Below, in pieces: positions 2,686-11,589 of a DNA stretch of 64,000 nucleotides. How positions within the stretch are numbered: position 1 is the first letter of the stretch; the number at the start of each line of letters is the position of its first letter. The notes under the pieces were generated by a model, which searched no databases, was not told the origin of the DNA, and saw nothing but the letters and a program-made list of their open reading frames with translations. A program made the translations under genes and the position numbers. The DNA comes from an uncultured bacterium (GTDB lineage Bacteria > Cyanobacteriota > Vampirovibrionia > Gastranaerophilales > Gastranaerophilaceae): assembly GCA_947073645.1 (NCBI GenBank), contig CAMTMK010000006.1, positions 1-64,000 of the forward strand, in the 5' to 3' direction.

Positions 2686-2713
2686 AATATAAGATAGTAT
2701 GAAAGGAGCAAAA

Positions 2714-3448
2714 ATGAGTATTAATGAGAATTTCGGGGGGGGGGCCCCTTATAGCTTAACTCCTGCATTTACGTTAGCTGAGGTGTTAGTTACTCTCGGT
2801 ATTATTGGTGTGGTTTCAGCGATGACATTGCCGACACTGCTAAAAAATCATCAGCGTCAGGTGTATGTAACTCAGTTACACAAAGTTTATAACGAAATTC
2901 AGCAGGCTGCGGATTTGTATGTGACAGAGAATAATTATGTGAACTTGGGTGAATCACGTATTAGAAATAATGCGAACGGTTTAAGAAATTTTATTACCAG
3001 ATATTTTAAAGTCGCACAGGATTGTGGTACAAGGTATGTTCCTTGTTTTGCAGATGAGTATACTTCTTTTTCCGGTAACGTTGTTAAAACTAAAAATGGG
3101 CAATGTAATGTTGTTGTAGCTCTTGTAAATGGGGCTACAATATGTGCAGATGCTGCTGCAATGTCAAATGTTACTGATAAGAATGAAGATGGTGAAGATG
3201 AAACTGTATCCAGTTCAAACCATGTCGGAAATGGCGGAGATGTAATTGCTTTTGAGGTAGATATAAACGGCAAACAAGGACCAAATATATATGGCAGAGA
3301 TTATTTTTCTTTCCAGATAGATAGAAATGGACAAATTTTTGATAAGTTTTATATTCAAAATGGCGAAGAAGCAGATTTCAATGCGGGTCATCCTGATAAC
3401 GGTATTTTTGGCAAAATTGTAGCTGACGGCTGGAAAATGGACTATTAG
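2714..3448 (+). CDS. Prepilin-like protein A (poly-G leader, in frame/ON)
   Basis: Predicted type IV pilin-like or pseudopilin subunit. The leader MSINENFGGGAPYSLTPA is followed by the mature start FTLAEVLVTLGIIGV, with Glu at +5 and the long hydrophobic helix typical of substrates of prepilin peptidase and pilus or type II secretion assembly. The ATG at 2714 is chosen because AAAGGAG precedes it; the ATG at 2699 lacks an RBS. A run of ten G (2735-2744) lies in the leader codons and keeps the frame open, so the gene reads ON. The C-terminal region carries DINGKQGPNIYGRD near residue 183 and ends WKMDY like genes C and G. The pilus type and surface role are inference. Confidence 0.85.
   Translation: MSINENFGGGAPYSLTPAFTLAEVLVTLGIIGVVSAMTLPTLLKNHQRQVYVTQLHKVYNEIQQAADLYVTENNYVNLGESRIRNNANGLRNFITRYFKVAQDCGTRYVPCFADEYTSFSGNVVKTKNGQCNVVVALVNGATICADAAAMSNVTDKNEDGEDETVSSSNHVGNGGDVIAFEVDINGKQGPNIYGRDYFSFQIDRNGQIFDKFYIQNGEEADFNAGHPDNGIFGKIVADGWKMDY
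2735..2744 (+). repeat. Homopolymer tract G10 in the leader of prepilin A
   Basis: Ten consecutive G between TTC and CCCC. Ten keeps ATG 2714 in frame with FTLAEV; gain or loss of one G would break it. Confidence 0.9.
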
Positions 3449-4056
3449 ATACAAATTTTTCTATATTCACAAAACTCACATTTTTTTGAATGCTCAACAT
3501 TTGGTTGGGCATTTTTTATTTTGTCACAGATTTCTAGGATTGGTTTTTCATAGTCCTTGTCAAAATCAATTATGCAGTTCTGGTTGTTTTTCAAGTCTAT
3601 GTAAACAAACTTGATATTTCTGCCGAATTTTTTAGACGCGCATAGTAAATAAACCATTGTCTGATAATCATATTCGGGATTTTTAGGTATTTGTCCTGTT
3701 TTATAATCCAATATATAATAGAAGTTTTCATCTTTTACTAAAGCATCCAATCGCCCGCCAATCCAATATTCTCCGATTTTGCAGGAAAGATTGTATTCGG
3801 AATTTACATAATTTTTTTTGAAAAATTCGTTCTGTTTCAAATTTTCCCAAACAATGCGTTCATCTGTATTCAAGGCAGTTTCAAGTTTTGAAATATTGTC
3901 ACCGCGCAGGTAATAATTTGCAAGTGCATGAACTTTTTTCCCTTTTTCAAAGAATGAACTCTTTTGAGGTACGGAAATTTTTTGAACATATTTGAACCAA
4001 TACTTTTGAGGGCAGGTTTCGAAAGTTTTTAGCATATTCGGTGAAAAGTTATTCAT
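3445..4056 (-). CDS. PD-(D/E)XK nuclease with probable Fe-S cluster (RecB/AddB/Cas4-like)
   Basis: Stand-alone nuclease domain of 203 residues. Visible active-site pattern: His43, Asp104 in GGRLDAL, Asp117 and Lys119 in DYKTG, and Gln132 in the RecB-type YxxQ motif. Cysteines at 15 (CPQKYW), 193, 196 and 202 (CEFCEYRKIC) match the four-Cys iron-sulfur pattern of AddB and Cas4 nucleases. The start overlaps the end of the upstream helicase gene by 8 bases, so the two are almost certainly co-translated and should form one helicase-nuclease for DNA-end processing. There are no cas1/cas2 genes nearby, so a Cas4 role is unlikely. Confidence 0.85.
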   Translation of the reverse strand: MNNFSPNMLKTFETCPQKYWFKYVQKISVPQKSSFFEKGKKVHALANYYLRGDNISKLETALNTDERIVWENLKQNEFFKKNYVNSEYNLSCKIGEYWIGGRLDALVKDENFYYILDYKTGQIPKNPEYDYQTMVYLLCASKKFGRNIKFVYIDLKNNQNCIIDFDKDYEKPILEICDKIKNAQPNVEHSKKCEFCEYRKICI

Positions 4057-7000
4057 TTAAAAGTTCTCCAAAAATTGTGTTTGGTTCTTGTTCTATGATT
4101 TTATCAAACGATTTAATTTTACGGCTTGTTGTAAAATAAAGCTGTTTTCTTGCTCTTGTGATTGCAACATATAAAAGTCTCAAGTGTTCTGCAATCTGCT
4201 CCTCTTTCATTTGAAGTTCTGTTTTGGGGTTGTAATTCGGATTTAGTCGTTTGAGAGTTTCTGTAAAATCCGCACCTTTAAGTTTCATTTGATTGATATC
4301 TAATGTTAAACTCTTTTCAGACATTTCCGGAATAAAGACGTAATCAAATTCGTCGCCTTTGGATTTGTGCATTGTCATAACCTGAACTTTGCCTGCAAGA
4401 AACTCTTTGTCGCTTTCATCTTCTTCTGAGAAGAACTTAAATCCGCTTAATGATGGTTTTTTGGCAAGTTCGCCAAGACGTTCGAGAAGTGTTGGGAAGT
4501 CTTTGTAATTCAGACTCAAACGCTTGATAAGTGTTGAAATTAAATACACGTTTGATTTCTCGATTTCTGAATTGAAGTAATGAAGTCCGATTTTGATTGC
4601 AAGTTCTTCACCTGCAAGATGCGGGAAAGAAAGCCAGTAAGTTAAATCCCAGTAAAATTGTGCAAGGTGAATGTTTTCAATATTGTCGCAATCGGTTTGG
4701 ATAAACGGAGTTTCATATTTTCTGATTTCAAGCCCTAAGCGTTGTTTATAAAATCCCATTTCTGCAAGAATTTCATAATTATCAGCAATAATATTATTAT
4801 CAAACGGATGTAATATCATTTGCATAATTGCATAAATTGTTCTGAAAATTGTCTTTTGTTCAAGACTTTCACTTCTTGTAATACATCTAAGCCCGCTGTT
4901 GTTTGTAAAGTTCAGCCATTGAGCGACTTGATAATTGCTTCTTAAAAGTATACCGATTGTGCATTTCGGGTCTTTTTTGAGCGCTTGTTTAATTTCTTTT
5001 AGGATATAATTTCTTTCTTCAAGCGGTTTTTCAAAAATTTCTGCATGAATTGCATTGTCGGAAACAGGATTTCTGCCGTCAACAGGGTTCATATAAATTT
5101 CAAAAAATGCTTCTTTGCGCCATTTTACAAGGTCGTTTGCAAGCATCCAGACATCTTTTGTACAGCGTTGCGAGCGATTCATGCTTACGTTGCTGCTTTC
5201 TATAATGAATTTTCTGAAACCTTCTACATCTGCATTAGAAAAAGTTGTTGTGATAGCCTGATTTATATCTCCGCAACGGATTAAGTTGTTGTGTTTTGCG
5301 CTTAATAGATTAATTAATCGTTGTTGAATTGATGAAGAATCTTGCGCCTCATCTTCAATTATATATTGGCAAATATCTTGATAGTATTTTTGGATATCAG
5401 GATTTTCTTCCAAAAGTTTGACAGATGAGATGAGCATATCATCATAATCAATAAGGTTTGCTTCTTTTAAAACAGTTTGATATTCCTCGAAGAATTTTTG
5501 GAAATTGGAGAGTTTTTTGTCTTTGGTTTCTTGGAATTGCCCACCGCCAATCTTAAATACAGAGATGCCCCTATCAAATTCGTCTGTTTCAGTTTTTTTG
5601 AGTTTTAATTTCTGTGCAATTTCTTTGATAATTCTAGAACGCTGGGTATCATCACAGATTTCAAAATCTGACGAAAGACCGAGACGCTCAAAATTTCCGT
5701 TTTCTTTTAAAATTCTTAGTGCAAGTCCGTGAATTGTGCTGATATTAGGAAGCTGTGCTGAATTCTGACGGATATTTTTAATTCTGTCACGGAAATTACG
5801 TGCTGCAGATTCCATATAAGTCATGACAAATATGTTTTCCGGATTTACACCGTTATCCAAAAGTTTTACAATCAATGCGAGCAAAATTGTTGTTTTGCCG
5901 GCTCCGGGGACCGCTGAAATTGCCATTTTACCTGATTTGTAATCAAGAACGGGCTTTTGGTCATCGCGCGGAGTGATGTTGAAGCTTTTTTCGTCATTGC
6001 GTACTTGATGCGCAGTTTCCTTAACTATTATATAGTCTTCTATTCCGCCGAAATTTTCAACACCATTGCCGTCAAAGAGGCTTGAGAATGTATAAATATG
6101 TTCAGATGCGCAGAGGGTTAGTTTGCGCAAAATTCTTGCGGTTTTTTCTTTTGAAAGTTCAATGTTATCATCAATTGTATATTCGTCTTTTGCCCATCCG
6201 CGTTGGAAGACCCAGGCATTATATAAAGGTCCTGTGTCGCTTTTAATCCATTCATCGCTTGAAATATCAAGCCATAATTGATATTTTGTTCTGATTTTGT
6301 TATCAATTATTTTTTGCGGAGTTGAGATTATCAAATCATTATCAGAAATTTCCAAGGTTGAATATGGGTTTTCTGAGATAATAGAATTTTCAATCTGTGT
6401 GAGAATGTCATTTTGGCGGGTTTTAAAATTTTCGCCGAAAATGTTTTCAAACTCTTGAAGCTGTTTTACAAAAAAGTTGAATTTGTTTATTTCTATCGGG
6501 TTTACTTCGTAAAATTCGGCAAGTTCATAGAATATATCACAAACTTTTTCCGAAAGTTTTGCTTCATTTTGTTCCAGATTTTCCAAAATTGTTCGGAATT
6601 TTTTATATTTTTCTGAATATTCTTCTAAAGCAAATTCATGTTCTATAAATTCACCCGCATCTAATATCTCTTTGCAGTATTTGACGGGAATACCCAAAAA
6701 TTCTGACAACACAACGCGCATGTCAAATTCATTTTTTTGAGGTTTCAGAATTGTTAAAATTGATTTTACAAGTCTATTTTGGATAAGTTTTTCACTGCCT
6801 GATAAATATACAAGATTGCAATGTATATTTTCTTTCAGTGAAAATTTTAGCATGTCGTCAATTACGGGTGTGATGATAGAAATCTCACAAGGGTTGATAT
6901 TTTTTGCAAAAATTTCATTAATCTGTTTTATTGCCCCGTCAATCATAGACGCTCTTTTAGATGGTGATTGAGTCGAAAAATGCTCCAGCGGTTCTAATTT

Positions 7001-7837
7001 CCCTTCAATTATATTGGAAAATAGAGTTTCTGCGTCATGATTATTACTTTGGATTTTTTGAGCTTTTTGGTTAAAGAGTTCTTCAAATTTCCAAACGGCA
7101 GTTCTGTCGGCACTCAAGTAGCCTGCACGGCTTGCGCCTTTTTCGTCAGAACATACAAAAACATCTTTCAATTGAGGTGCTAAGTATCCAATAAAATCAA
7201 AGCAAATCGGGGTTATTTCGTCACCGTCATCAAGGATAAGATATTTTATATTTTTGAAATAATCAGAATTTTTATAAACATAATTAAATACAAGTGCTTG
7301 TCTTAGATAGTCAAAATCTCGTAACTCTAATGTGCGTTTTAAAAGTTCTTTCAGAGCTTTTTTTGCATCATCGGCAAAACTTTCACCCAAAACTCTTGAG
7401 CGCCATTCCACATCTTCATCAGACAAGTTGTTTTGTACAATAAGCGAATATCTTCTGAAAATTTGGTGAAGAAGTGATTTTTTTGAATTGTAACCCTTAA
7501 ATTGAATATCTTTCAAAATATCTTTTAAAATGAATTGAGAAATTTCTAACCCTGCAAGGTTTGGCAAAATTGTCGGATTATCAAACGGGTTGATGTTTTC
7601 AAGCAGTGCCCAATTATCATTTATTGTGTTATATACAAGTGAGAAAAAAGTATGAACCTGAAGTTTTTCCATACAATTTACTTTGAGTGCTTCAAGAGTT
7701 TTGTCTATAAATTTTTGTTTACCGCTTTGAACCAGAACCAGAATTTCAGAAGCATCAATTCCAGAGTTTAATAGTTCTGCATATTTTTCTATTAAAAACT
7801 CAGTCTTATTTGTCGATAAATCCGTTGAAATTAACAT
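4049..7837 (-). CDS. UvrD/RecB-family ATP-dependent helicase with a fused degenerate helicase half
   Basis: Protein of 1262 residues. The C-terminal half is an intact SF1A helicase: Walker A VPGAGKTT at about 640, Walker B/motif II EDEAQD at about 829, motif V MTMHKSKGDEFDYV at about 1159, and motif VI LLYVAITRARKQL at about 1226. The first ~600 residues mirror the same order in decayed form: STDLSTNKT at 4-12 in place of Walker A, VHTFFSLVYN, LILDDGDE in place of motif II, and a Ser/Asp-rich motif-III-like stretch. That is the arrangement expected if a RecC/AddB-like dead helicase were fused to a RecB/AddA-like live one. The nuclease is encoded separately by the overlapping downstream gene. 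Likely role: double-strand-break end resection. Confidence 0.85.
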   Translation of the reverse strand: MLISTDLSTNKTEFLIEKYAELLNSGIDASEILVLVQSGKQKFIDKTLEALKVNCMEKLQVHTFFSLVYNTINDNWALLENINPFDNPTILPNLAGLEISQFILKDILKDIQFKGYNSKKSLLHQIFRRYSLIVQNNLSDEDVEWRSRVLGESFADDAKKALKELLKRTLELRDFDYLRQALVFNYVYKNSDYFKNIKYLILDDGDEITPICFDFIGYLAPQLKDVFVCSDEKGASRAGYLSADRTAVWKFEELFNQKAQKIQSNNHDAETLFSNIIEGKLEPLEHFSTQSPSKRASMIDGAIKQINEIFAKNINPCEISIITPVIDDMLKFSLKENIHCNLVYLSGSEKLIQNRLVKSILTILKPQKNEFDMRVVLSEFLGIPVKYCKEILDAGEFIEHEFALEEYSEKYKKFRTILENLEQNEAKLSEKVCDIFYELAEFYEVNPIEINKFNFFVKQLQEFENIFGENFKTRQNDILTQIENSIISENPYSTLEISDNDLIISTPQKIIDNKIRTKYQLWLDISSDEWIKSDTGPLYNAWVFQRGWAKDEYTIDDNIELSKEKTARILRKLTLCASEHIYTFSSLFDGNGVENFGGIEDYIIVKETAHQVRNDEKSFNITPRDDQKPVLDYKSGKMAISAVPGAGKTTILLALIVKLLDNGVNPENIFVMTYMESAARNFRDRIKNIRQNSAQLPNISTIHGLALRILKENGNFERLGLSSDFEICDDTQRSRIIKEIAQKLKLKKTETDEFDRGISVFKIGGGQFQETKDKKLSNFQKFFEEYQTVLKEANLIDYDDMLISSVKLLEENPDIQKYYQDICQYIIEDEAQDSSSIQQRLINLLSAKHNNLIRCGDINQAITTTFSNADVEGFRKFIIESSNVSMNRSQRCTKDVWMLANDLVKWRKEAFFEIYMNPVDGRNPVSDNAIHAEIFEKPLEERNYILKEIKQALKKDPKCTIGILLRSNYQVAQWLNFTNNSGLRCITRSESLEQKTIFRTIYAIMQMILHPFDNNIIADNYEILAEMGFYKQRLGLEIRKYETPFIQTDCDNIENIHLAQFYWDLTYWLSFPHLAGEELAIKIGLHYFNSEIEKSNVYLISTLIKRLSLNYKDFPTLLERLGELAKKPSLSGFKFFSEEDESDKEFLAGKVQVMTMHKSKGDEFDYVFIPEMSEKSLTLDINQMKLKGADFTETLKRLNPNYNPKTELQMKEEQIAEHLRLLYVAITRARKQLYFTTSRKIKSFDKIIEQEPNTIFGELLNE

Positions 7838-7980
7838 CCATACTCCTTATCAGTATTTTAGCACAAATAATAAAAAATAAATTTCCTCAACCAAATGAAC
7901 TATTGCAAATATTTGCCCGTTCGGCTATTATATAACCATAAAGAAAAGAGATGTCGCATTTTTAAATAGGAGGTTAAATT

Positions 7981-8187
7981 ATGCAAGAGTTACAAGAACA
8001 AATCGGTTTTTCAGCAGGACAAATTTATGATTATTTGAACAATAACGGAGAGTCAACTTTCTCTAAAATGAAAAAAGAATTAGACCTTAAAAGCAATTTT
8101 GCAGATTTAGGTCTTGGTTGGTTAGCTAGAGAAGATAAAGTTGAAATTTCTAAAAAAGGAACTTCAGTAAGCGTAAGACTTAAGTAG
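7981..8187 (+). CDS. Small winged helix-turn-helix protein (DUF2582-like)
   Basis: 68 residues, GQIYDYLNNNGESTFSKMKKELDL then LGWLAREDKVEI and a final beta-hairpin. This is the pattern of the small winged-helix family I know as DUF2582. The ATG follows a strong AGGAGG at 6-7 base spacing. It is monocistronic and followed by a terminator. DNA binding is likely from the fold; the target is unknown. Confidence 0.75.
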   Translation: MQELQEQIGFSAGQIYDYLNNNGESTFSKMKKELDLKSNFADLGLGWLAREDKVEISKKGTSVSVRLK

Positions 8188-8203
8188 TTTTAATAAATAA
8201 ATA

Positions 8204-8235
8204 AAAAAAGAACGGTATTTATACCGTTCTTTTTT
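8204..8235. terminator. Bidirectional terminator between the wHTH and RHH genes
   Basis: AAAAAAGAACGGTAT pairs with ATACCGTTCTTTTTT. It has A and T runs on both sides and lies between converging genes. Confidence 0.85.
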
Positions 8236-8237
8236 GT

Positions 8238-8426
8238 TTACTCTAAAAGTGATTCCAATAATTCTGCATTTCTTGCGGATGCGGTCGATTCCCTGACTTT
8301 TTGTTTGTAGATGTAAGTGCGCAGTGCTTCTCTGATTAGTTCACTGCGTGAACGATTTTCACCATCCGCAACTTGGTCAATTCTTTGTAAAAATTCTTCG
8401 GGCATAGAAATTAATACTCGTGCCAT
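8238..8426 (-). CDS. Ribbon-helix-helix (CopG-type) transcriptional regulator, 62 aa
   Basis: The sequence MARVLISMPEEFLQRIDQV gives the beta-strand and first helix, and ENRSRSELIREALRTYIYK gives the second helix of a ribbon-helix-helix fold. These proteins bind DNA as dimers, often as antitoxins or small repressors. No toxin gene is adjacent, so a stand-alone repressor is at least as likely. The RBS is GGAGA upstream. A close paralogue sits at 63842-64000, where a further small gene follows it. Confidence 0.82.
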   Translation of the reverse strand: MARVLISMPEEFLQRIDQVADGENRSRSELIREALRTYIYKQKVRESTASARNAELLESLLE

Positions 8427-8586
8427 ATGTTCTCCTTTTCTTTTATTTTCGAAAATCGCTTATACTTAAATAAAAACATTTCTATATAAAAAAGTGCTAT
8501 TTTGTATTGATAGAATATATATTAAATTTTAAAAGCCTTGATATGAGTGGATTTTCCAGCTTAATAAAAGTTAATATTGCGCCCTG

Positions 8587-8615
8587 TTGCTTTAAAATCA
8601 AATTTAAGATATTAT
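8587..8615 (+). promoter_or_regulatory. Promoter of the pyrH operon
   Basis: TTGCTT at 8587-8592 and TATTAT at 8610-8615 with a 17-base spacer, ahead of the pyrH RBS (AGAGAAGG). Confidence 0.5.
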
Positions 8616-8637
8616 AAATGCAAAGAGAAGGTATCCT

Positions 8638-9348
8638 ATGAAATATAAAAGAATTTTATTAAAGATTAGCGGTGAAGCTTTATTGGGAGAGCAGCAATTT
8701 GGTATTGACCAAAACCCTGTGAAGATGATTGCCGGAGAGATTCAGAAAGCTAGAGAATTAGGTGCAGAAGTTGCAGTAGTTGTTGGCGGCGGAAACATAT
8801 TCAGAGGCATGAAAAACAGTGCGAAACTTGGCATGGATCAGGCATCAGGTGATTATGTCGGAATGCTTGCAACTGTTATGAATGCAATTGCTTTGCAAAG
8901 TGTATTAAATCAAATGGAAATTCCTTGCAGAGTTCAAAGTGCTCTTGCAATTAATCAGGTTGCTGAACCCTATATCAGACACAGAGCTATCAGACACCTT
9001 GAAAAAGGCAGAGTTGTAATTTTTGCGGCAGGTACAGGTAACCCGTTCTTTACAACTGATACTGCTGCAGCATTAAGAGCGTCTGAAATTAATGCAGAAG
9101 CTATGCTTATGGCGAAAAACGGAGTTGACGGGGTTTATACAGATGACCCGAAAACTAATCCCGATGCGAGAAAATTAGATAAAATCAAATATGATGATAT
9201 TATTATTAAAGGTTTGAAGGTTATGGATACTTCTGCATGCACATTGTGTAAGCAGAATAATATTCCAATCGTTGTATTTGATTTTGAGGCAGAAGATGCA
9301 ATTGTTGATATTCTGCATGGTAAAGAAATAGGCACATATATAAATTAG
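8638..9348 (+). CDS. pyrH: UMP kinase
   Basis: Phosphorylates UMP to UDP in pyrimidine nucleotide synthesis; hexameric cytoplasmic enzyme of the amino-acid-kinase fold. 236 residues, normal length. Recognisable segments are YKRILLKISGEALLG at the N-terminus, VVVGGGNIFRG near residue 47, the FAAGTGNPFFTTDTAAALRA nucleotide-binding region at 127-146, and NGVDGVYTDDPK. It heads pyrH-frr-cdsA-rnc-rpe; the pyrH-frr pairing is widely conserved. Confidence 0.97.
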   Translation: MKYKRILLKISGEALLGEQQFGIDQNPVKMIAGEIQKARELGAEVAVVVGGGNIFRGMKNSAKLGMDQASGDYVGMLATVMNAIALQSVLNQMEIPCRVQSALAINQVAEPYIRHRAIRHLEKGRVVIFAAGTGNPFFTTDTAAALRASEINAEAMLMAKNGVDGVYTDDPKTNPDARKLDKIKYDDIIIKGLKVMDTSACTLCKQNNIPIVVFDFEAEDAIVDILHGKEIGTYIN

Positions 9349-9472
9349 AAAGAGTAAAGACGGGAACGAGCGCTTTTGTGTTTAAGTAAATTAACGATAA
9401 AATTAAATAAAAGCGACGTGACTGACCAAGATATTTAAAGTCCGACCAAGGTCGGCGGAAAGGGTATAAAAA
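9349..9472 (+). other. pyrH-frr spacer with a CCGACC/GGTCGG hairpin
   Basis: The 124-base spacer contains CGGGAACGAGCG and, just before frr, the inverted repeat CCGACCAAGGTCGG followed by GGAAAGGG. There is no T run, so it is not a terminator. Its position over the frr RBS region suggests a possible effect on translation; that is inference. Confidence 0.4.
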
Positions 9473-10039
9473 ATGTCAGAGGCGTTAGAAGAATTATTTT
9501 TATTTGGCGAAGAAAAAATGGAAAAAGCAATTAATCAGCTTCATAGAGAATTTGGTTCAATCCGTTCAGGCAGAGCTAATCCTATGATTTTGGATAAAGT
9601 TATTGTGGAATATTACGGAGCTCCTACTCCTTTGAGACAAATGTCACAGGTTACAGTTCAAGACGGTACAACTCTTGTTATTACACCTTATGATAAAACA
9701 ATTTTGAAAGAAATTGAAAAAGCTATTATCAAAGCTGAAATCGGTATTACACCAAACAGTGACGGTATTTGTATAAGACTTCCTTTCCCGCCATTGACCG
9801 AAGAAAGAAGACGCGAAACTGCTAAGGAAGTTAAAAAGTTAGGCGAAGATGCTAAAATTGCTATTAGAAATGTTCGCCGTGATATGGTTGATGATTTGAA
9901 AAAACTTGAAAAATCTGAAAATCTTCCTGAAGATGCAGTGAAAGATAATCAAGATAAAATTCAAAAATTGACTGATAAATATACAGGTATTATCGATAAA
10001 GATGTTGCAGATAAAGAAAAAGAGGTTATGACTGTATAA
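9473..10039 (+). CDS. frr: Ribosome recycling factor
   Basis: Splits post-termination ribosomes together with EF-G. 188 residues, close to the usual 185. Visible hallmarks are FGSIRSGRANPMILDKVIVEYYG near the N-terminus, the TPYDKTILKEIEKAI region, and RLPFPPLTEERRRE followed by the helical KKLGEDAKIAIRNVRRD. Its last base overlaps the cdsA start (TAATG), so translation is coupled. Confidence 0.97.
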   Translation: MSEALEELFLFGEEKMEKAINQLHREFGSIRSGRANPMILDKVIVEYYGAPTPLRQMSQVTVQDGTTLVITPYDKTILKEIEKAIIKAEIGITPNSDGICIRLPFPPLTEERRRETAKEVKKLGEDAKIAIRNVRRDMVDDLKKLEKSENLPEDAVKDNQDKIQKLTDKYTGIIDKDVADKEKEVMTV

Positions 10040-10899
10040 TGGATGAAACTAAAGGCTTGAATAAAAACGCGACAAGAATGCTGACAGGGTTTATAATGGG
10101 AACGATTACCATGGGATGTATTATGCTTGGTGGTGTGGCGCTTCTGTTGTTACTCGCATTAGTTATATTTTTTGCATCAAAAGAGTATGTGAAAATTCTT
10201 GAACACAAAGGTTTTTATCCAAGCCTTAAAATCATTCTTTTAGCAGGTGCTATCCTTGCCGGTATAACTTTCTTTGAACGTACTGATTTTGTAGCTGGTG
10301 CGCTTACTTTTTGTTCGTTTGCTTCGTTTTTATGGGTTTTATTTAAAGGCAGACAGCCATATATTGCAAATGTTGCAACTACTATTTTAGGTTTTGTTTA
10401 CTGTGCATATTTTCCGTTACAGCTCCAATTATTGAGAGATATGCATTCTGCTCAATACCATGATGGATTAGGATTTGTTGTAATGATGTTTACTGCAGTT
10501 CTTTTGACTGATGTAGGATGTTATTATGCAGGTACAAAATTTGGAAAACATAAACTTGCTCCTGTAGTAAGTCCAAATAAAACTATTGAAGGTTCTATAG
10601 GTGGTATTATTTGTGCTGTTTTAGGCGCTGTGCTTGTCGGGTCAGTAATCGGAGTACAGTGGTATTTGTCGGCTGTTGCTGGTCTTTTATGTACAGTATT
10701 TGCTCAAATCGGTGATTTATGTGAATCATTAATCAAACGTGATGCGGGTGTTAAAGATTCCGGAAATTCACTCCCGGGTCATGGCGGTTTTTTGGACAGA
10801 ACTGACAGTTTTGTGTTCACAATTCCTGTTATGTATTATTTCTGTAAGTATTTTATTTTTTCTAACGATATAGTTGAATTTATTAAAGGATTAGTTTAG
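10039..10899 (+). CDS. cdsA: Phosphatidate cytidylyltransferase (CDP-diacylglycerol synthase)
   Basis: Makes CDP-diacylglycerol from phosphatidic acid and CTP, the branch point of phospholipid synthesis, in the inner membrane. 286 residues with about seven or eight hydrophobic segments. The CDS signature spans the C-terminal third: SPNKTIEGSIGG at about 174, QIGDLCESLIKRDAGVKDS, and LPGHGGFLDRTDS. The rnc start directly abuts its stop. Confidence 0.95.
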   Translation: MDETKGLNKNATRMLTGFIMGTITMGCIMLGGVALLLLLALVIFFASKEYVKILEHKGFYPSLKIILLAGAILAGITFFERTDFVAGALTFCSFASFLWVLFKGRQPYIANVATTILGFVYCAYFPLQLQLLRDMHSAQYHDGLGFVVMMFTAVLLTDVGCYYAGTKFGKHKLAPVVSPNKTIEGSIGGIICAVLGAVLVGSVIGVQWYLSAVAGLLCTVFAQIGDLCESLIKRDAGVKDSGNSLPGHGGFLDRTDSFVFTIPVMYYFCKYFIFSNDIVEFIKGLV

Positions 10900-11589
10900 A
10901 TGAAAGAGTTAGAAGAAATTTACGGAATAGCAATCGATAATTCCGATTTATTCAAATGCGCATTGACGCATCCTTCGTATACACAGGAAAATAATCTGTC
11001 TTATGGAGAAAATTATGAACGTTTTGAGTTTTTGGGTGATGCAGTATTAAAACTTGCTGCTTCAGAAATTCTTTATAAAAAATATCCTCAATATGCAGAA
11101 GGTGAGTTGTCAAAAATTCGTTCTATTGTTGTTTCAGATAATACTTTATCAAAAATAGCACATGAAATCGGTTTGTGTGAATTGATTATTTTAGCAAAAC
11201 ATGAGGAAAAGCAAGGGCTTGCACGTATTGAATCAGTTTGTGCATGCGCGTTTGAAGCAGTTTTGGGAGCGTTTTATCTTGACGGTAAGCTGGAACAGTT
11301 AAAACCTTTTTTAGAAAAAGTTCTAACTCCATATATTGAAGCTGTTGATGCAAACTTTGAAAAATATAATGCAAAAGCCTTGTTGCAAGAGTTTACACAA
11401 TCTGTTGATAAACAAACTCCGATATATAAACTTGTTGAAGAAAACGGACCTGCACATAAAAGAACATTCAAGGTTGCAGTTTCTTATCAGGGAAAAGTTG
11501 TTGCATACGGTACAGGTAAAACCAAAAAAGAAGCAGAACAGCATGCCGCTTATGAGGCTTGCAAAATTTTAGGAGCATTACCGTTATGA
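10900..11589 (+). CDS. rnc: Ribonuclease III (with a Cys at a usual metal-binding Asp position)
   Basis: Cleaves double-stranded RNA in rRNA maturation and mRNA turnover. 229 residues: RNase III domain (1-150) with ERFEFLGDAVL (Glu43, Asp47) and a dsRNA-binding domain (157-227) ending in GKTKKEAEQHAAYEA. In the second active-site motif the sequence is ESVCACAFEA, which places Cys116 where E. coli has Asp114, while Glu119 matches E. coli Glu117. The 3' end overlaps the rpe start as ATGA. Confidence 0.95.
   Translation: MKELEEIYGIAIDNSDLFKCALTHPSYTQENNLSYGENYERFEFLGDAVLKLAASEILYKKYPQYAEGELSKIRSIVVSDNTLSKIAHEIGLCELIILAKHEEKQGLARIESVCACAFEAVLGAFYLDGKLEQLKPFLEKVLTPYIEAVDANFEKYNAKALLQEFTQSVDKQTPIYKLVEENGPAHKRTFKVAVSYQGKVVAYGTGKTKKEAEQHAAYEACKILGALPL

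Follow-up and report, generated by a model that had tools for sequence, protein, structure and literature searches.

The window analysed here is a stretch of 64,000 nucleotides from an uncultured bacterium of the Gastranaerophilales (assembly GCA_947073645.1, contig CAMTMK010000006.1, positions 1 to 64,000). Two genes on its reverse strand are described herein, one for a 1262-residue protein composed of two helicase-like halves and one for a PD-(D/E)XK nuclease; their open reading frames (ORFs) share 8 bp (Table 1). A first-pass annotation of this DNA had reported a full set of superfamily 1A (SF1A) helicase motifs in the second half of the long protein, the same motifs in degenerate form in its first half, and a separate, overlapping nuclease gene with four cysteines. 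All three descriptions held in the analyses below. We consider it likely that the N-terminal half (the N part), the C-terminal motor and the nuclease form a three-part helicase-nuclease that would resect the ends of DNA breaks, working like AddAB and AdnAB.

Table 1. Features of the helicase-nuclease locus, in window positions.
Feature	Position	Strand	Assignment or evidence
Fused helicase, 1262 aa	4049..7837	-	decayed SF1A (1-620) + active SF1A (621-1262), predicted
N-half, residues 1-620	5978..7837	-	predicted pseudo-helicase; whole UvrD-like fold, degenerate motifs
Decayed Walker A of N-half, residues 5-12 TDLSTNKT	7802..7825	-	motif counts across loci
N-half motif II counterpart, residues 203-208 DDGDEI	7214..7231	-	motif alignment
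C-half, residues 621-1262, predicted active SF1A motor	4052..5977	-	Pfam, PDB profile match, tree, motifs
Walker A of active motor, residues 643-650 VPGAGKTT	5888..5911	-	motif check
Motif II of active motor, residues 828-833 EDEAQD	5339..5356	-	130/130 loci
Motif VI of active motor, residues 1220-1229 RLLYVAITRA	4151..4180	-	motif check
PD-(D/E)XK nuclease, 203 aa, Cas4/AddB/AdnA-like	3445..4056	-	Pfam/NCBIfam + predicted fold
Nuclease catalytic stretch D104 ... D117-x-K119	3700..3747	-	invariant, 120/120
Nuclease cysteines C193, C196, C202	3451..3480	-	presumed Fe-S site, with C15 at 4012-4014

The C-half matches PF00580 at residues 627-877 (expectation value, E, 3.5e-53) and UvrD_C at residues 1139-1239. 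A profile search of the PDB returned PcrA (E 8e-65) and AddA (E 6.8e-34), and by sequence the C-half is nearest to PcrA and UvrD. Motifs I, II, III, V and VI are preserved throughout the loci examined. The Walker A motif is intact in 130 of 130 Gastranaerophilales loci (two overlapping fetches, in which some genomes are counted twice) and in 14 of 14 other fused proteins, and EDEAQD is conserved in 130/130. By its motifs the C-half belongs to SF1A (UvrD/Rep), and it is predicted to be an active motor. This motor forms a clade of its own. In a midpoint-rooted tree of 58 motor rows, the C-halves, the second UvrD proteins of cyanobacteria and the operonic motors made up one group (support 100/99), apart from PcrA, AddA, RecB and single-chain UvrD-nuclease proteins. 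All fused rows likewise formed one group (98/97). The tree is to be read with its long branches in mind (L320, 2.13; RecB, 3.33; L317), and with composition differences in many rows (here and below, genomes are numbered G, loci L and families f).

The N-half of the window protein, taken alone, had no Pfam match at E 0.001 and one chance-level match at E 0.068. A PDB search with a profile of Gastranaerophilales N-halves only returned no helicase, and searches of separate N proteins against Pfam and NCBIfam were mostly empty. The homology of the N-half to SF1A helicases therefore rests on matches of its wider family. The first link came from L216, a separate N protein that matches PF00580 with E 2.1e-8, and 14 of 37 family members match PF00580 singly. 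In the PDB search, the broad N-family profile found PcrA over about 500 residues (E 5.2e-11). When profiles were compared with hhalign, the N family scored 98.9% against PcrA over 584 columns, 98.7% against the window protein's own C-half family, 98.6% against the cyanobacterial motor and 94.3% against AddA. AddB, represented by three sequences only, scored 60% over one short stretch around motif II, and RecC scored 0.6%, that is, no detectable sequence link. Since PcrA, the C-half family, the cyanobacterial motor and AddA all outscore AddB, the N part is not assignable to one SF1A parent. An AddB-like origin was set aside as weak, and so was a RecC-like one, for which the fold comparison offered only a place in the Foldseek list.

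The AlphaFold2 model of the N-half (predicted local distance difference test, pLDDT, 83.2; predicted template modelling score, pTM, 0.81) spans the whole UvrD fold. UvrD, Rep and PcrA superpose on it at Z about 27-28, the match to UvrD 4c2t_D having Z 28.1 over 422 residues at 3.0 A. The model also superposed on AdnB 9np6_B (Z 24.1, 562 residues, 4.9 A), AdnA 7sjr_A (Z 24.0, 520 residues, 5.6 A), AddB 4cej_B (Z 22.6, 567 residues, 5.8 A) and RecB 5ld2_B (Z 19.5). RecC stood lower in the Foldseek list and outside the 50 superposed rows, which excludes nothing. The structure comparison relates this half to UvrD, AdnA, AdnB and AddB and yields nothing specific to RecC. The window N-half carries degenerate counterparts of motifs I and II (Table 1) and of motif III (SDEKGASR). 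The degree of decay varies by group. Within the first 90 residues of the N part, 3 of 130 Gastranaerophilales loci keep a consensus Walker A, compared with 12 of the 14 fused proteins from other Vampirovibrionia and 11 of 15 separate N proteins. Because motif II reads DDxDE/D in most members, in place of DExQD, it is questionable whether the N part hydrolyses ATP, even in members that retain Walker A. Fold and family matches together indicate that the N-half is a pseudo-helicase of the SF1A superfamily with a full UvrD-like fold.

At two loci the N-half of the fused helicase is interrupted by an in-frame insertion, an endonuclease domain of the DUF559 (Vsr-like) type. In L244 (G143; protein 5560-10011, + strand) the insert lies at residues about 309-410 (PF04480, E 1.7e-30), with a near-identical peptide repeated on either side of it; in L052 (G011; protein 3261-7685, + strand) it lies at residues about 288-395 (PF04480, E 3.7e-36). 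Genomes G206 and G225 show N-half match pieces separated by a gap like that of these loci. G218 has two N-half copies, on contigs C28 and C18, the second within a 1132-aa frame.

The nuclease matches PF12705 (PDDEXK_1) with E 2.5e-21. Residues H43, E87, D104, D117, K119, Q132 and Y136, which include the catalytic ones, are invariant in 120 of 120 sequences. All four cysteines are present in 113/120 and none in the other 7 (L030 and L044-L049), the all-or-none pattern expected of a single metal site, presumably an iron-sulfur (Fe-S) one. The predicted structure (pLDDT 91.2) ranked AdnA first (Z 16.5), followed by ACE1 (15.4 and 14.4), AddB (12.3, 201 residues), Cas4 (8 to 12) and RecB (9.2). 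In profile searches the nearest solved chains were the AdnB nuclease and ACE1 (9IAB, E 4.2e-10; 9IAC, E 2.9e-9), and an identity with AdnA is not clean, as the best solved chain by sequence is AdnB. We read the nuclease as AdnA/AddB/Cas4-like and not as RecB's. The first-pass annotation had likened it to a detached RecB nuclease, a view that does not fit the low rank of RecB or the Fe-S-type cysteine set. Identity with ACE1 was also tried and rejected: individual phmmer searches with three cyanobacterial nucleases, including the two presumed orthologs, did not match it, so ACE1 and these nucleases are probably separate lines.

In five loci of one subclade (L044, L045, L047, L048 and L049), the fused helicase is directly preceded, in the same orientation, by a gene of 672-686 aa. 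Four of the five are counted among the cysteine-less nuclease loci, as are L046 and L030; the list of such loci itself runs L030 and L044-L049.

By its PD-(D/E)XK domain, its four cysteines and its score against the NCBIfam Cas4 model (79.5 bits, cut-off 65), the nuclease qualifies as a Cas4. PADLOC Cas4 models match it as well. It could accordingly be a Cas4 of CRISPR adaptation that happens to lie beside an unrelated helicase. We hold this to be very improbable: in 120 loci the nuclease is linked to the helicase and not to cas1 or cas2. No cas gene is among the ORFs adjoining the nuclease in the window; no genome-wide cas1 search was made.

The window genome (Candidatus Gastranaerophilales) is rated 99.81% complete. 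Relatives with names are nearly all Candidatus Gastranaerophilales or Melainabacteria, which places the window in this group of the cyanobacterial phylum. It contains two UvrD_N matches, the fused gene and an 848-aa ORF of PcrA type, and one PDDEXK_1 match, the nuclease gene beside the fused helicase. The search for RecC (PF04257) found none, and the three family searches together returned no RecB-, AddA-, AddB- or RecC-type gene; the searches did not extend to RecD or to other genes of resection. The layout is not confined to this genome: the survey found the fused gene in 55 of the 60 family genomes, a count that includes a few contig-end fragments, one internal TGA and several genes with inserts. 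Among the 53 genomes at least 90% complete, only G008 and G046 lack it.

The nuclease gene lies within the locus in 40 of 50 loci read, overlapping or abutting the fused gene in 38 and standing at 12 bp and at 1132 bp in one each. In the named loci, which were found through the N-half, it is beside the fused gene in 80/80 and overlaps or abuts it in 75/80. For five of the ten loci lacking an adjacent nuclease, the genome encodes an ortholog elsewhere (E <= 3.1e-66). The genomes of the other five (G012, G016, G028, G049 and G052) have no nuclease ortholog: G012, G016 and G052 gave nuclease-profile matches only in long frames of AddAB type, and in G049 (97% complete; L039) and G028 (84% complete) the fused helicase is kept and the search detected no member of this nuclease family. 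A pair of AddB-like and AddA-like proteins accompanies the fused gene in G018, G052 and G016, and G012 has an AddA-like protein. By the families searched, AddAB is absent from the window genome; some relatives do have such a pair, which the first-pass annotation had named as refuting its reading of a genome. A single UvrD-nuclease protein of 1013-1032 aa occurs in four genomes lacking the fused gene (G008, G046, G042 and G177); in G001 and G002, frames of this length that match PDDEXK_1 coexist with the fused gene.

These ten loci, together with the sequence proximity of both halves to PcrA and UvrD, would suit an accessory replication or repair helicase like Rep or UvrD, with a nuclease that is incidental or independently used. 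We think this quite unlikely. The window genome already has its separate PcrA-type helicase, the two genes overlap in most loci, and the N part and the nuclease co-occur in genomes where they are unlinked, as described below.

Outside the order Gastranaerophilales, families f6, f11 and f12 also have fused proteins, about 1370-1480 aa long. In genomes of other families the three parts are separate. N part, motor and nuclease are consecutive genes on one strand in G312 (L214), G336 (L215) and G330 (L220), and motor and nuclease adjoin in a fourth genome, G326 (L320). The N part stands alone in 14 further genomes; 13 of them encode a C-type motor at another site, and 12 gave a match to the nuclease. 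One of these lone N genes (L209 in G401, 9017-11071, - strand) is broken into two neighbouring ORFs, 331 and 349 aa long. The three-part system is spread over most of the phylum, fused or consecutive in some genomes and scattered in others. The simplest and most likely history begins with three separate genes, followed by a single fusion at the base of the sampled Vampirovibrionia. That the parts were joined, and not the nuclease cut off as first proposed, is suggested by the separate genes of the relatives and by the single clade of the fused form.

Next, we compared the distribution of the N part with that of RecC in 292 genomes searched both for RecC and with the broad N profile. The N part was scored with a cut-off of 1e-15; genomes counted as positive had E <= 3.1e-39 and those counted as negative 8.2e-15 or weaker, the borderline G314 (8.2e-15) being counted as negative. 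RecC was found in 40/292 genomes. A strong N match occurred in 237 of 252 RecC-negative genomes and in 5 of 40 RecC-positive ones. The sample includes 130 genomes of the window's family f1, 127 of them N-positive; outside f1 the N part is present in 110/122 RecC-negative and 5/40 RecC-positive genomes. The 35 genomes with RecC and no N part all belong to family f38 (1.6-3.7 Mb), which is probably the marine Prochlorococcus/Synechococcus group, given its small genomes and the recBCD reported there in the accessible text of PMC5101192. Two genomes of family f36 (G354 and G433, 3.0 Mb) yielded neither RecC nor the N part; G354 had no nuclease match and G433 a weak one only.

The nuclease follows the N part. 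Its profile was run on 45 hand-picked genomes, consisting of 24 that were N-positive and RecC-negative, 10 of the 35 from f38, and 11 of the 15 lacking both. A stand-alone match with E <= 1e-27 in a frame of 257-317 aa was counted as presence. By this measure the nuclease was present in 23/24 N-positive genomes (G337 being the exception), 0/10 from f38 and 2/11 of the remainder (G314 and G416), which gives 23/24 with the N part versus 2/21 without it. Weak matches in N-negative G304 (a 646-aa frame) and G433 (1.2e-7) were not counted. G416 shares its genus with the N-positive G305, so the search may have overlooked an N gene in G416. Two Fisher p values (5e-28 and 2e-9) ignore kinship and were not taken as evidence.

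Like this system, AdnAB combines two UvrD-like motor halves with a PD-(D/E)XK nuclease; AdnA and AdnB align to almost all of the N-half, and AdnA is the best nuclease fold. Each AdnAB subunit bears its own fused nuclease, whereas here there is one PDDEXK_1 domain, encoded by a free gene, for two motor halves that form a single chain in Vampirovibrionia. AddAB resembles the system in having one active and one inactive part of helicase-like UvrD fold, an AddB-type set of four cysteines, and in AddB a fold that aligns with both the N-half and the nuclease. It differs in that both of its subunits, AddA and AddB, have a nuclease fused to them, whereas the window protein ends at residue 1262 without a nuclease domain, its inactive part is fused to the motor and not to an Fe-S nuclease, and its motor falls outside the AddA branch. 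RecBCD, too, combines a single nuclease with an active SF1A motor and a dead helicase-like part, one of each; here the nuclease is unfused and has cysteines, and neither the PF04257 search of the genome nor hhalign revealed a RecC subunit. Of the first reading, a fused RecC and RecB, the dead and live SF1A motors in one chain remain and the tie to RecC does not. Because the defining fused nucleases are absent and RecC is also lacking, the system appears to be a helicase-nuclease variant and not a member of the AddAB or AdnAB families.

Two further comparisons come from partly accessible sources. ACE1 (PDB 9IAB and 9IAC), described as an Argonaute-associated Cas4-family protein of cyanobacteria, resembles the nuclease in fold and by profile match; single cyanobacterial nucleases differ in giving no phmmer match to it. 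In Clostridiales, separate UvrD and Cas4-like genes form a predicted operon with a suggested role in repair (Hudaiberdiev et al. 2017, PMC5704561); in contrast to the present system, the accessible text of that paper mentions neither a second, decayed helicase nor a cyanobacterial or Melainabacteria case. No description of the fused arrangement or of the phylum-wide three-part form was found in the open-access papers searched. The parts are of known kinds, and the arrangement is new as far as those papers show.

We infer that the parts meet in one complex. On the model of AddAB, AdnAB and RecBCD, the active half would load at a broken end, unwind the DNA and translocate along one strand in the 3' to 5' direction. 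The pseudo-helicase would serve as a scaffold that holds the complex and shapes a strand channel, the role of AddB, RecC or AdnA. The nuclease would cut the emerging strand or strands, leaving a 3' single-stranded tail for RecA, and foreign linear DNA would also be destroyed. The N part and motor form one chain in Vampirovibrionia and are separate proteins elsewhere in the phylum. In having a single nuclease for its two motor halves the system is reminiscent of RecBCD; the cysteine set and the fold recall AddB and AdnA. In favour of this reading stand the intact motor motifs and catalytic nuclease residues, the fusion and the gene linkage, the motor and fused clades of the tree, the fold matches of N-half and nuclease, the distributions of N part and nuclease, and the failure of the family searches to find RecBCD or AddAB in the window genome. 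These bacteria may rely on the fused helicase and the nuclease, in place of the usual RecBCD or AddAB, to process broken DNA.

Several observations weigh against this resection reading. By sequence the nearest kin of the N family are PcrA and UvrD, AddB is reached over one short stretch and RecC not at all. Seven nucleases lack the cysteines, five family genomes lack the nuclease, and in G018, G052 and G016 an AddAB-like pair makes redundancy possible. Among the lone-N genomes, G377 lacks a C-type motor, and G337 and G338 lack a nuclease match; the scattered cyanobacterial proteins may not meet. Five genomes have both RecC and the N part (G306, G310, G315, G324 and G338, the last 9% contaminated). 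Because 35 of the 40 RecC-positive genomes belong to f38, the exclusion of N part and RecC is essentially one replacement event and not many independent ones.

The system could also be mainly a defence module against incoming plasmids, phage or transforming DNA, with break repair secondary. The Cas4 matches of the nuclease point this way, as do GajB models that match the motor and the close nuclease fold of the Argonaute-associated ACE1. In a transposon screen of Synechococcus elongatus PCC 7942, according to the accessible text of PMC10653904, loss of ago, cas4, uvrD (distinct from PcrA), recJcy, rpoD2 or the PD-(D/E)XK gene Synpcc7942_0992 increased the transfer or maintenance of RSF1010 as well as natural transformation. 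A 2020 transformation screen named Argonaute and Cas4 homologs (PMC7125226, accessible text). We judge a mainly defensive role unlikely. Near-universal, apparently vertical presence (55/60) and one phylum-wide motor lineage suit a housekeeping gene better, and RecBCD and AddAB are also expected to degrade foreign linear DNA, so the readings overlap. No GajA-type partner adjoins the motor, the adjoining gene being a PD-(D/E)XK nuclease of Cas4 type; GajA was not searched genome-wide. The S. elongatus phenotypes, a genetic lead, would be compatible with the loss of a RecBCD-like enzyme; the hits are not mapped to the genes described here.

Returning to break resection, the system bears on how double-strand breaks are resected in model cyanobacteria, which are reported, in the accessible text of PMC5101192, to lack parts of RecBCD. 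The chances are about even that it constitutes a fourth class beside RecBCD, AddAB and AdnAB. It would then be an ancestral cyanobacterial three-protein complex, fused once in Vampirovibrionia and replaced by RecBCD in f38, and would supply model cyanobacteria with their missing enzyme for resection. The gene fusion of gut Melainabacteria suggests that three cyanobacterial genes, though unlinked, encode the parts of a single machine. If this is true, it would provide a natural single-chain pair of dead and live helicases for structural work, and it would explain the Cas4-like and UvrD hits of the published transformation screen.

Downstream of the locus, a prepilin-like ORF of 249 aa (window 2699-3448, + strand) converges on the nuclease gene and shares 4 bp with it (3445-3448).

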